This document shows positions 19,778-24,290 of a stretch of 64,000 nt of DNA, piece after piece. The stretch comes from Acidimicrobiaceae bacterium (GTDB taxonomy: Bacteria > Actinomycetota > Acidimicrobiia > Acidimicrobiales > UBA8592), in NCBI GenBank assembly GCA_002709645.1, contig PAQG01000014.1:7395-71394 (forward strand). The letters run 5' to 3'. The stretch's first letter is position 1, and every line of letters begins with the position of its first letter. Both the position numbers and the translations under genes were made by a program. The notes beneath the pieces are model-generated. The model had not been told where the DNA came from. It saw only the letters and a program-made list of their open reading frames with translations, and ran no database searches.

Positions 19778-20866
19778 ATGGAAATACCGCTGGATCTATC
19801 ACACGTAACTAGTGCATGGCTTGAACAAGCATTTCATTCATCTGATCGGTTTCAGGATGTAGTAATTAAATCTATTGAATGTGAAAATATTGGAGAAGGA
19901 ACAGGAATTTTTGGCGAAATCGGTCTTCTCACAGTGTCTTATGTAAACCAGGGACAAGCACCCGATTCATTAGTGGTAAAACTTCCTTGTATAGAACCAG
20001 AGAATCTTGCAGTTGCCCAAGCATTGGGAATATATGCGCGAGAAGTCGCTTTCTATCAAACAGTCGCTTCTTCCTCTTCTCTACGTGTTCCCCAATGTTT
20101 TTACTCATTTATGGGAGATGATGGTCGTTTCGTTCTTTTAATTGAAAATCTCTCAAACGACTATGTTGTAGGAGATCAAGTTAAGGGAGCGACACATGAA
20201 CAAGTTTTAAGTGCGATTGATATTTTGGCTGGATTCCATGCTGAATGGTGGGACAGTCCTAACCTTCACGTACTTGATTGGTTACCAAATCCTGATGATC
20301 CGGCATACATGGAAGCAGTCCCTGAAATTTATAGGGCTGGACTTCCAGTTCTAGTAAACGAATGGGATTCTAAAGTTCCGGCAGAAAGCATTGAAGTCGC
20401 TCAACTTTTAGAGCCAAAGTTTGAACAGTTAATGCTGTTGTTTGCTGGCGGTCCCCATACTTTCTCCCATGCCGATACTCGTTTGGATAACTTATTTTTT
20501 TCTAAATCAGATGAACAGGATGTAGCTTTCATTGATTTTCAACTTTGTCTCCGGGGAAGAGGCATAAATGATATTGCGTATTTAGTCGGGAATAGTGTTC
20601 CTCAGGGCATCGCTGCAGCCAATTGGGAGTTGTATATTGAACATTGGATTAAAGCACTTGCTGCGAACGGTGTGGATTACGCATTTGAAGACGCTGTTTT
20701 GCATTACCGTCAAGCAGTTCTTTATTACATTGTTGGCGCTATGTCTCTTATAGCTTCATTCGATACAGGTAATGAACGAGGGGCTGCTATGGCAGAAACG
20801 TACGTTACCCGCATATTTAACCATGTTGCTGATATAGAGGCTCGACTAATATTAGAAAAATTGTAA
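19778..20866 (+). CDS. Aminoglycoside-phosphotransferase-like (APH fold) kinase
   Basis: A 362-residue protein with the APH/choline-kinase fold. The catalytic loop is HADTRLDN (His231, Asp233, Asn238) and the metal-binding Asp253 is in FIDFQ. The N-lobe lysine is likely in VVKLP (about residue 68). Actinobacterial and marine members of this group are usually called phosphotransferases of unknown substrate; some related proteins act on small alcohols or on acyl-CoA-linked substrates. A second, different APH-fold gene lies 0.8 kb further on. An AAGGAAAGGAA ribosome site precedes the ATG. Drug resistance should not be assumed. Confidence 0.8.
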   Translation: MEIPLDLSHVTSAWLEQAFHSSDRFQDVVIKSIECENIGEGTGIFGEIGLLTVSYVNQGQAPDSLVVKLPCIEPENLAVAQALGIYAREVAFYQTVASSSSLRVPQCFYSFMGDDGRFVLLIENLSNDYVVGDQVKGATHEQVLSAIDILAGFHAEWWDSPNLHVLDWLPNPDDPAYMEAVPEIYRAGLPVLVNEWDSKVPAESIEVAQLLEPKFEQLMLLFAGGPHTFSHADTRLDNLFFSKSDEQDVAFIDFQLCLRGRGINDIAYLVGNSVPQGIAAANWELYIEHWIKALAANGVDYAFEDAVLHYRQAVLYYIVGAMSLIASFDTGNERGAAMAETYVTRIFNHVADIEARLILEKL

Positions 20867-20867
20867 T

Positions 20868-21557
20868 TCAACAATATTTATATTCTTTGCCGAGTCGAGT
20901 GCTTCCAATTTCCTCTATTATGTTCGTTTTTCTAAAACAGTACGCCATTTGTTGTGCAATTTGTCGAGTTACTTGGGCAGATTCGGCAATATCAGCCGTT
21001 GTGAAAACATTTGGAAGATCAGAGGGTAGTAATCGCGTGAAATCTTTTATTCCATGAAAGTGTTGAGTTGAATGAACTTCTTTCAATGCTGTATTTACTG
21101 TCCTATATCCGCCACGGTTCCTTCTAAGCTTCGGATCATATTCTTGAATTTTTGTGACTGTTGTGAGAACAACTTCAAAACTCAAGTTTGGTTCTTTCAA
21201 TAATCCAGTGATCGATACTAGTTCATTAAAAATGTTATAAATTGAACCTTTTTTAGGAGATTTTCTTAATTTATTTCCTGATTTTCGTAGTTGCGTTTCT
21301 ATTGCTATCGGGTATACAACTTTAATTTTATAATTTTGTAATAATGATTCAAGTTTCTTTCTCATGGAACCAAAAGATGATGTTTGAATTTCAATAATTA
21401 CATTTTCTTTTTGAGTATTTCTCCAAATATCAACCACGTAACCATCAATAGGAACCTCAAGTTGGTCCCCTGGTTCTGTGTAAAGTATTTTCATTGCTGA
21501 GTGCAATGACCCTTCATTAAGTGTTCCAATAACTGGTTTATCTTCAGGGGTTTCCAA
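20868..21557 (-). CDS. Unrecognised protein with a nuclease-like EIQ motif and a C-terminal winged-helix-like region
   Basis: A 229-residue protein; I do not recognise a named family with certainty. The N-terminal half has a layout like a PD-(D/E)xK nuclease core: Glu15 in the first helix, Asp38 and Asp43 in IDGYVVDI, then IIEIQ with Glu56 and Gln58 on a predicted strand, and a basic helix (RKKLESLL). An E-x-Q variant of the third motif is known in CoiA-type proteins of that superfamily. Residues about 184-229 look like a winged helix (TTADIAESAQVTRQIAQQM). The start is a TTG at 21557 after AAAGG. It is divergent from the second APH-like kinase. A role in DNA cleavage or repair is inference. 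Confidence 0.6.
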   Translation of the reverse strand: METPEDKPVIGTLNEGSLHSAMKILYTEPGDQLEVPIDGYVVDIWRNTQKENVIIEIQTSSFGSMRKKLESLLQNYKIKVVYPIAIETQLRKSGNKLRKSPKKGSIYNIFNELVSITGLLKEPNLSFEVVLTTVTKIQEYDPKLRRNRGGYRTVNTALKEVHSTQHFHGIKDFTRLLPSDLPNVFTTADIAESAQVTRQIAQQMAYCFRKTNIIEEIGSTRLGKEYKYC

Positions 21558-21631
21558 AATTGCCTTTACCGTTGCTTTTGTCTATTTCTTCCATTTCTGG
21601 CAGTCTTAAAACGACTGTAGTTGGTGGGGAC

Positions 21632-22801
21632 ATGGGAAAGAAACCAAAATTATCTATTCCACAAAATGGTGAAGATTTCACGGCTGAATGGTTTACTGAA
21701 ATTCTTCAACCACAATATGGTGCTGCTGTTCTTCATGTAGATCAAGATGTCATTGGTACTGGTATAGGTTTTGTTGGTGAGGTTTATAGATGTTTCCTTC
21801 AATGGGATGCTTCTCGGGAAGATTTACCTATATCTGTGATAGTGAAGGTTCCTTCAAAAATCCCAGCGAATAGAGGATTGGGAGAAGGGTTGCAGCTCTA
21901 CGAACGTGAAGTTATTGCCTACAGCAAACTTGGGGATGATATGGGGCTTCCTATGCCTATTGCGTATTTCGCAGCTATGGATGACGACCCGACACCTTGG
22001 TTAGAAAAAGTTATTGAATTTCTTTTTACTTATTTGCCACCGAAAGGAGTGAATTGGTTAACTGTAAAGTTCTTACAATTAGCTGGGAAAAACCCAAAGC
22101 TAAGACGCTATATTCTTGTCCTTGAAGATATAGATGACGCCCGCCCGCCAAGTCAAGTAGCTGGTGGTTCGCTTAATGATGCGTTACTTGCATTAGATTC
22201 ATTAGCTAAATTCCATGCGCATCACTGGTTAAGGGATTCTTCTATAGAGATCTCTCCAAGAATATGGTCATTGGATCGACTTCCGAAAGTATGGAAAGCT
22301 AGTTATCTCCGAAATAGAGCAGAGTTTGTTAGTCGTTTTGGAACTCTCATAGGTGAGGAAAAGCTCCACATACTTGATCAAGCACAAAAAGAGATTCCAG
22401 AATTGCTTAAGCCTTTAGGAGAACCTCCATGGACGCTTCTTCACGGCGACTACCGTTTGGATAACATCCTGTACCGTCCTGATGGGAGCATTGTTGTAAT
22501 AGATTATCAAATCCTTTCAAAAGGACGACCTGGTTGGGACGTAGCTTACTTCATTACGACTGCGCTTAATCCGGAACATAAAGTTGAAGAAGATACTTTA
22601 TTGCGTCATTACCACAATGTTTTGTGTTCAGAGGGGGTAAGTGATTATCCGTATGATTTGTTATTAGAAGATGTTCAGGTAACGAAATTGTTACTTGCAC
22701 ACCGACTTGTGGGGGGAAGGGACGCTTTTGATACAGAGCTACAAGATAGTGATGAAACGTTTGTTGATGTTCTAGTAAAACGTGTCGTTGGTTGGATTTA
22801 A
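21632..22801 (+). CDS. APH-fold phosphotransferase of the ecdysteroid-kinase-like type
   Basis: A 390-residue kinase-fold protein. The catalytic loop LLHGDYRLDN, the metal site VVIDYQ and a C-terminal helix bundle match the APH/DUF1679-like group. It is only distantly similar to the APH protein at 19778. The start is the ATG at 21632 behind a GGTGGGG site; the frame extends to 21560, but that stretch abuts the divergent gene's start. The substrate is unknown. It is flanked by the nuclease-like protein and the DNA methyltransferase, both on the opposite strand, which gives an interleaved arrangement. Confidence 0.78.
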   Translation: MGKKPKLSIPQNGEDFTAEWFTEILQPQYGAAVLHVDQDVIGTGIGFVGEVYRCFLQWDASREDLPISVIVKVPSKIPANRGLGEGLQLYEREVIAYSKLGDDMGLPMPIAYFAAMDDDPTPWLEKVIEFLFTYLPPKGVNWLTVKFLQLAGKNPKLRRYILVLEDIDDARPPSQVAGGSLNDALLALDSLAKFHAHHWLRDSSIEISPRIWSLDRLPKVWKASYLRNRAEFVSRFGTLIGEEKLHILDQAQKEIPELLKPLGEPPWTLLHGDYRLDNILYRPDGSIVVIDYQILSKGRPGWDVAYFITTALNPEHKVEEDTLLRHYHNVLCSEGVSDYPYDLLLEDVQVTKLLLAHRLVGGRDAFDTELQDSDETFVDVLVKRVVGWI

Positions 22802-22814
22802 TTATCTTGCTTAC

Positions 22815-23735
22815 CTACAACGAAGCCAACCGTTTGTTTGCAAGTTCAATGTAATTTTTGTCCGTATCAAAGCCTAGGTAGTGACGTCCTGCTTTTTTCG
22901 CAGCAATTGCGGTTGTTCCAGCTCCACAAAAAGGATCTAGTATTACATCTCCCTTATATGAATAGAGTTCAATAAGACGTCTTGGTAATTCCACTGGAAA
23001 TGGTGCAGGGTGTCCTACTCTTTTCGCAGATTCTGGTTGTATACGCCAAGTATCTAATGTCCAAGATAGAAAATCTTCTTTATTTATTGTGTCAAGATGT
23101 GGTAACCCTATTTCTTTACGTTTTTTTCTTGGAATCGCTCTATCAAGTCGGAGTTTGCTTGCAACAATTACTCGCTCTGTGACATCACGGAGAACAGGGT
23201 TTGATGCCGACTGGAATGATCCCCATGCGCAACTCCCTGAAGCTCCCTCTGCTTTTATCCATATAATTTCACCGCGAAGGAGAAATCCTATATCGTCTTG
23301 CAAAATACGTGTTATGTCTGAACTTAATGAACGGTATGGCTTGCGTCCAAGGTTTGCTACATTCACTGCAATTCGGCCACCAGGTTCAAGAACTCTCCAA
23401 CATTCAGCAAAAACATCTTTAAGCATGCGTAAATATTCCACATAACTCGCAGGAATACCATTCTCTCCTAGATCTAATTCATATTCTTTTCCTGCAAAAT
23501 ATGGTGGTGAGGTTACAACAAGCGCTACGGAATCAGAATTAATAATGCTCATGTTACGGGAATCCCCGACTACTAATTTGTTCAACGTCAAAGGTGGTGA
23601 AGGTTGAGAATCCTTGTCTTGTTTAATAGGGGGAAATCGTTTATAGAAATCATCTGAATTGTGATTTTCTCTTTTTGTGACACCAAAAGATGATGTTTTG
23701 GTCTGTTGTTTAGCGCTATTTTCAAGAAGAGACAT
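22815..23735 (-). CDS. Site-specific DNA methyltransferase (SPPY type, probably N4-cytosine)
   Basis: A 306-residue enzyme of the beta-class amino-methyltransferase type: the catalytic motif TSPPY (75-79) comes first, then the target-recognition region, then the S-adenosylmethionine motif DPFCGAGTT (267-275). SPPY usually indicates N4-methylcytosine, while DPPY indicates N6-methyladenine, so N4-mC is the better guess. The first about 45 residues are polar and probably disordered. No restriction enzyme follows directly; the candidate nuclease-like gene lies 1.3 kb away beyond a kinase gene. It may be an orphan regulatory methylase or half of a split system. Confidence 0.88.
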   Translation of the reverse strand: MSLLENSAKQQTKTSSFGVTKRENHNSDDFYKRFPPIKQDKDSQPSPPLTLNKLVVGDSRNMSIINSDSVALVVTSPPYFAGKEYELDLGENGIPASYVEYLRMLKDVFAECWRVLEPGGRIAVNVANLGRKPYRSLSSDITRILQDDIGFLLRGEIIWIKAEGASGSCAWGSFQSASNPVLRDVTERVIVASKLRLDRAIPRKKRKEIGLPHLDTINKEDFLSWTLDTWRIQPESAKRVGHPAPFPVELPRRLIELYSYKGDVILDPFCGAGTTAIAAKKAGRHYLGFDTDKNYIELANKRLASL

Positions 23736-23801: not shown

Positions 23802-24290
23802 TTAACCTGCGGATATGGGTTTTTTGAAATAGCGGACTTTTTTCCCTGGTTCATGTTCTCGGTCATGAAATGGCTTCCATCCGAGGTCAGTGTGAAACGC
23901 TAAAGACTGAGGATTTGGGGGTTCAACATTGACTTCGCAAAGGAGAACTTCTATACCCATTTCTTTAGCGTATGATTCAAGAGTTGCATAGAGTTTCTTA
24001 CCGTAGCCATTACGTTTTGCATGAACATCAACCATAATTCTATCGACATAGCAGAAGTTATTGAATTGTGTTTCAAGCCAGATGTAATTGTCGCTATGGT
24101 ATTGCTCCCCTGACTCTAATGTAATTAAAGCAGCGACAATATTTTCTCCTACCTCAATACCCCAAGATTTTTTCGACATTGAAAGAATATTTTCAAGGTC
24201 ACTTGTTACTAATTTATTCACAGCCGGAACGGATTCGTTATTGAGTTTTAAGACACCTTCAATATCTCTGGAATACAATTCGCGTATCAT
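23802..24290 (-). CDS. GNAT-family N-acetyltransferase
   Basis: A 162-residue acetyltransferase. The acetyl-CoA loop is in DVHAKRNGYGKKL (the Q/RxxGxG/A-type motif, here RNGYGK), preceded by the CYVDRIMVD strand and followed by the LLCEVNVEPPNPQSLAFH segment with the family's Asn-Pro-x-Ser element. The C-terminus carries a KKVRYFKKPI strand. The substrate (amine or protein N-terminus) is unknown. It is downstream of nothing obvious and upstream of the methyltransferase on the same strand with a 66-base gap. Confidence 0.85.
   Translation of the reverse strand: MIRELYSRDIEGVLKLNNESVPAVNKLVTSDLENILSMSKKSWGIEVGENIVAALITLESGEQYHSDNYIWLETQFNNFCYVDRIMVDVHAKRNGYGKKLYATLESYAKEMGIEVLLCEVNVEPPNPQSLAFHTDLGWKPFHDREHEPGKKVRYFKKPISAG

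Follow-up and report, generated by a model that had tools for sequence, protein, structure and literature searches.

In a 64,000-nucleotide stretch of DNA from an Acidimicrobiaceae bacterium (hereafter the window), which forms part of contig C14 (PAQG01000014.1) of a 1.83 Mb draft genome and whose closest named relatives are Acidimicrobiales metagenome-assembled genomes, a gene for a predicted nuclease of 229 amino acids lies near a gene for a DNA methyltransferase, with a kinase-fold gene between the two. We consider it highly probable that the nuclease and the methyltransferase are functionally unlinked and stand side by side through inherited gene order in one Acidimicrobiales genus, the nuclease being a stand-alone protein and the kinase unrelated. 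The nuclease gene (20868..21557, minus strand) has a TTG start codon preceded by AAAGG. It is separated by 1,257 bp from the gene for the 306-residue beta-type methyltransferase, which carries a TSPPY sequence (22815..23735, minus strand). The intervening gene, APH2, of the EcKL/APH family (21560..22801, plus strand), is divergent from the nuclease gene and convergent with the methyltransferase gene. The coordinates of these open reading frames (ORFs) confirm the placement of all three genes in an initial annotation, which had offered two readings of the locus: a split module for restriction-modification or defence, its middle gene being kinase-like, or an unlinked methylase and DNA-processing protein.

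Within the genus, the conserved gene order at this site is glcE-glcD-APH1-nuclease-APH2-methyltransferase-GNAT-CaiB-PlsC-IMP. Outside the genus, we surveyed 22 nuclease loci (about 221 kb of flanking sequence, taken to at most 7 kb on each side), and at none of them did a methyltransferase lie beside the nuclease, be it a relative of the window enzyme or a protein bearing motifs common to other DNA methylases. At locus L017, GNAT, APH2 and the nuclease gene are present without a methyltransferase between them, and at L033/L056 (genome G019) the order is GNAT-nuclease-glcD. Separate contigs hold the nuclease and the methyltransferase in G018, G019, G043 and G045, as well as in G001 from the same genus, while G036, which is 95% complete, contains the nuclease and gives no methyltransferase match. 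Among the 42 genomes from outside the genus, the methyltransferase occurs in four of the five that have the nuclease and in 35 of the 37 that do not (Fisher p = 0.32); there, therefore, the presence of one gene does not predict that of the other. Hence, across homologues, the two genes show neither the steady linkage nor the co-occurrence expected of a type II restriction-modification system. The proposed module with the kinase in the middle finds no support: the 22 loci outside the genus are free of a methyltransferase, and almost the whole order has the methyltransferase, mostly in genomes that have no nuclease. The unlinked alternative is the better reading. The initial annotation had also named two outcomes that would speak against a joint module: homologues with methyltransferase-free neighbourhoods, which is what we found outside the genus, and a predicted fold unrelated to PD-(D/E)XK, which we did not find.

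In one congener, G001, a break separates the methyltransferase from the kinase gene of the conserved block (contigs C76 and C89; loci L094 and L060), reflecting either a rearrangement or an assembly break. Four other congeners have neither the nuclease nor the methyltransferase. Co-loss of the pair was considered here and rejected: orthologues of CaiB and GlcD from the same block are also missing (best matches about 30% identical), and therefore the whole region is absent or unassembled in these genomes.

Modelling and conservation give good support for placing the 229-residue protein in the PD-(D/E)XK nuclease fold, as an EXQ variant that carries a winged helix at its C-terminus. We aligned 36 members of the family, the others being 32–68% identical to the window protein, and found E15, L18, K23, E34, D43, E56, Q58, K68, L72, S100 and P101 to be invariant in all 36. 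AlphaFold models of the window protein and of a 32%-identical Myxococcota homologue (mean pLDDT 90.5 and 84.2, respectively) share the same order of elements. The predicted core comprises a helix that begins just past E15 and carries motif I, a strand, a second strand with D43, a third with E56 and then Q58, a helix with K68 and a final strand. As expected for PD-(D/E)XK enzymes, the motif residues fall on successive strands, D43 within strand 40–47 and E56/Q58 at the end of strand 52–57, and they do so with identical residues in 36 of 36 sequences. The core is followed by a middle beta-rich region containing an invariant SP(K/R) and then by the winged helix (strand 184–186, helices 187–194 and 198–210, strands 214–220 and 223–228). 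Foldseek searches of the PDB with the core returned the Bax1 nuclease, OkrAI, SfsA and HincII, and also BglII for the Myxococcota homologue, so that members of the PD-(D/E)XK superfamily recur among the top matches, each at a weak E-value. The tail matched many winged helices, and searches of viral models gave a mismatch endonuclease (Vsr-like), MmcB-like and RecB-like proteins and other endonucleases. A PD-(D/E)XK core and winged-helix C-terminus had been suggested from sequence beforehand, and the two models, the fold searches and the invariant motif residues bear this out. Among the catalytic residues then proposed, Glu15 and Glu56-x-Gln58 are indeed invariant; for the pair Asp38/43, Asp43 proved invariant, whereas Asp38 is present in just 13 of the 36 sequences.

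The CoiA family and BglII (PMC1189080) and the YhgA-like family (PMC1913061) are known to have motif III in the EXQ form, and in several families the motif III lysine has moved to the helix past the third strand (PMC1913061). In common with the CoiA-like, YhgA-like and BglII variants, the window nuclease has the motif I Glu, the motif II Asp, the E-x-Q of motif III (codons for E56, I57 and Q58 at 21384..21392, minus strand, counted from the ORF start at 21557) and a basic residue on the helix past the third strand. In contrast to them, it adds the middle region with its SP(K/R) and the winged helix, its gene has no link to competence or restriction genes, and it has no detectable sequence match to any of the three; the CoiA Pfam model (PF06054) did not match it at E-values up to 1. 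Architectures that join a nuclease to a winged helix have been described for COG5482, TnsA and NaeI (PMC1189080). The 229-residue protein resembles these in its domain content, yet no sequence relation to them was found, and its gene lies in an ordinary chromosomal context, with neither transposition genes nor a cognate methylase. The best PDB fold match of the core, Bax1 (DUF790), is the partner of the XPB helicase; the nuclease differs from it in length and domain order, the match is weak (E 3e-3, TM < 0.25), and no XPB gene was noticed beside the nuclease gene.

On this basis, the protein would be a stand-alone, metal-dependent DNA endonuclease in which E15, D43 and E56 (motifs I, II and III) bind the metal. 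Q58 would occupy the place of the usual lysine, for which K68 on the next helix (motif IV) may stand in, and the C-terminal winged helix would hold the DNA.

Homologues that keep the reading frame open are found in 14 of the 18 genomes of the genus, that of the window included, at 55–68% identity to the window protein; judging by this conservation, the ORF is a real, selected gene. In the other 42 genomes of the order or family they are far scarcer (5 genomes), giving 19 of 60 relatives overall, and wider sampling recovered the family in 9 of 296 Actinomycetota genomes (again counting the window's) and in 3 of 146 genomes sampled around a Myxococcota homologue. Searches of plasmids, phages and viral contigs yielded no homologue. 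The 229-residue protein has no match in Pfam, NCBIfam or PADLOC models or in PDB sequences; for the PADLOC defence models this holds at E-values up to 1. When individual members or the alignment of the whole family were used to query Pfam, NCBIfam, PHROGs, PADLOC and PDB sequences, the only matches were weak helix-turn-helix ones to the tail. Since it has no entry in the libraries searched, we regard the nuclease as a new family of a known kind, its fold and its EXQ active-site variant both being known already. In the phylogenetic tree the genus copies form a clade with support of 100/100, inherited stably at one site. Two homologues from the Myxococcota-centred sample, L062 (G407) and L063 (G371), branch among actinobacterial sequences (support 86/83 and 96/78), a position that suggests transfer between phyla. 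No defence genes were recognized around the nuclease, and an all-against-all comparison over 22 loci, including two from the genus, found only GNAT and GlcD at a consistent position, in close relatives.

Several observations weigh against the interpretation given here. Within the genus the nuclease and methyltransferase genes are syntenic in 12 of the 13 genomes that hold both. Most genomes are incomplete drafts, so single gene absences are weak evidence, and in principle a restriction gene may be distant from its modification gene (PMC4752239). The fold-search E-values are weak (best in the PDB 3e-3, none below 0.001), with query-normalized TM-scores below 0.3, and for this reason the fold assignment relies on topology in combination with the invariant motif residues. 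Finally, the neighbours of the nuclease do not point to a specific role for it.

A self-sufficient accessory nuclease would agree with the patchy presence of the family, the Myxococcota-sample copies among actinobacterial ones, the chromosomal setting and the absence of a partner. As its role, DNA processing or repair by this one gene seems most likely, ahead of restriction of foreign DNA or defence, although we make this choice with low certainty. A more specific proposal can be put forward tentatively: the 229-residue proteins may be undescribed, patchily transferred, single-gene PD-(D/E)XK and winged-helix endonucleases that need no partner, recognize a specific structure or sequence in DNA and function in repair or in the cutting of foreign DNA. 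That the protein is instead a horizontally spread single-gene defence nuclease directed against foreign DNA would agree with its sparse occurrence in the Actinomycetota and Myxococcota-centred samples and with the placement of the two Myxococcota-sample copies. We nevertheless consider this unlikely in view of the stable one-site inheritance within the genus, the lack of any PADLOC match or of recognized defence genes nearby, and its absence from the phages, plasmids and viral contigs searched. Rather less probable still is a catalytically dead PD-(D/E)XK protein acting as a DNA-binding regulator. The winged helix, the glutamine in place of the canonical lysine and the divergent kinase gene close by in the genus would all accord with such a function; against this, every candidate metal-binding residue is invariant in 36 of 36 sequences from two phyla, which is unexpected for a dead site, and EXQ is a known configuration of the restriction enzyme BglII (cited in PMC1189080). 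A split type II restriction-modification system, with the 229-residue protein as restriction enzyme, the TSPPY protein as its methylase and an unrelated kinase between them, draws on the two folds lying 1.26 kb apart on one strand in synteny across the genus, but is very improbable given that none of the 22 non-genus loci has the methylase next to the nuclease, that the two genes do not predict each other there, that the methylase has another recurrent neighbour elsewhere and that G036 carries the nuclease with no methylase match, a state that no cell whose cognate restriction enzyme is active would tolerate.

The methyltransferase matches Pfam N6_N4_Mtase (1.4e-41), with motif IV (TSPPY) preceding motif I (DPFCGAGTT). 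Its best solved relative is 2zie (residues 34–304, 4e-32), which we take to be the putative modification methylase TTHA0409 of Thermus thermophilus. The enzyme is encoded in 52 of the 60 relatives, including 32 of the 34 high-quality genomes, with 52–66% identity outside the genus, and across the phylum it was detected in 31 of 198 genomes at E < 1e-50. Methylases have been termed conserved when over half of the species in a taxon have them (PMC4752239), and we class the window methyltransferase accordingly, since at the order level it exceeds this share. No cognate restriction gene lies beside it in the genus, where it is solitary, though a distant unrecognized partner is possible. We read it as a DNA methylase that is conserved in the lineage and probably an orphan in this genus, and its role is probably epigenetic. 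It resembles orphan methylases such as Dam, CcrM and the orphan families of Blow et al. (2016; PMC4752239) in being present in most of its order with no adjoining restriction gene in the genus, and departs from them in that a possible partner gene follows its orthologues in other genera.

Most orthologues outside the genus are longer at the C-terminus by a domain of about 165 residues, which the copies in the genus lack (long forms at L086:4321-5733 (+), L087:3910-5352 (-), L088:3535-5196 (-) and L090:6068-7612 (+)). A candidate partner protein of about 335–346 residues with invariant E-W-x-G-P and DLR(I/V)D-x-VYLVSCKY occurs in 13 genomes (for example L087:2797-3837 (-), L088:2196-3212 (-) and L089:6583-7590 (+), downstream of the methyltransferase). 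All 13 have the long-form methyltransferase, and in 10 of them, one with a fragment, the candidate lies directly downstream of it. In ten genera outside that of the window, this protein with its nuclease-like motif is the downstream neighbour of the methyltransferase; none of the 18 genomes of the genus has it. Its match to the PADLOC type II restriction model REase_II is weak (0.0028). It is plausibly the likelier restriction partner of the methyltransferase in those other genera.

The kinase-fold gene that the initial annotation had placed between the two, on the opposite strand, is confirmed by matches of APH2 to Pfam EcKL (2.2e-18) and APH (5.2e-10), and is an ordinary EcKL/APH-family gene unrelated to either. 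Since most homologues within the genus align only from residue 15–26 onward, the true start of APH2 is likely to be the ATG at 21632. Throughout the genus the nuclease gene sits between two EcKL/APH paralogues that are 22% identical to each other. The second, APH1 (19778..20866, plus strand; Pfam EcKL 1.9e-14), is convergent with the nuclease gene and 1 bp from it. Directly upstream of the methyltransferase gene, on the same strand, is a GNAT acetyltransferase gene (23802..24290, minus strand). Promoter and terminator scans gave nothing above chance.

Overall, these results correct a tempting but false pairing: a nuclease and a methylase that lie close together are here very probably not a system. 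The nuclease represents an uncatalogued family with a clear predicted active site, testable with one purified protein. The methyltransferase is conserved across an order that is represented here largely by metagenome-assembled genomes, and is a candidate source of an epigenetic mark whose motif would be readable from long-read data.
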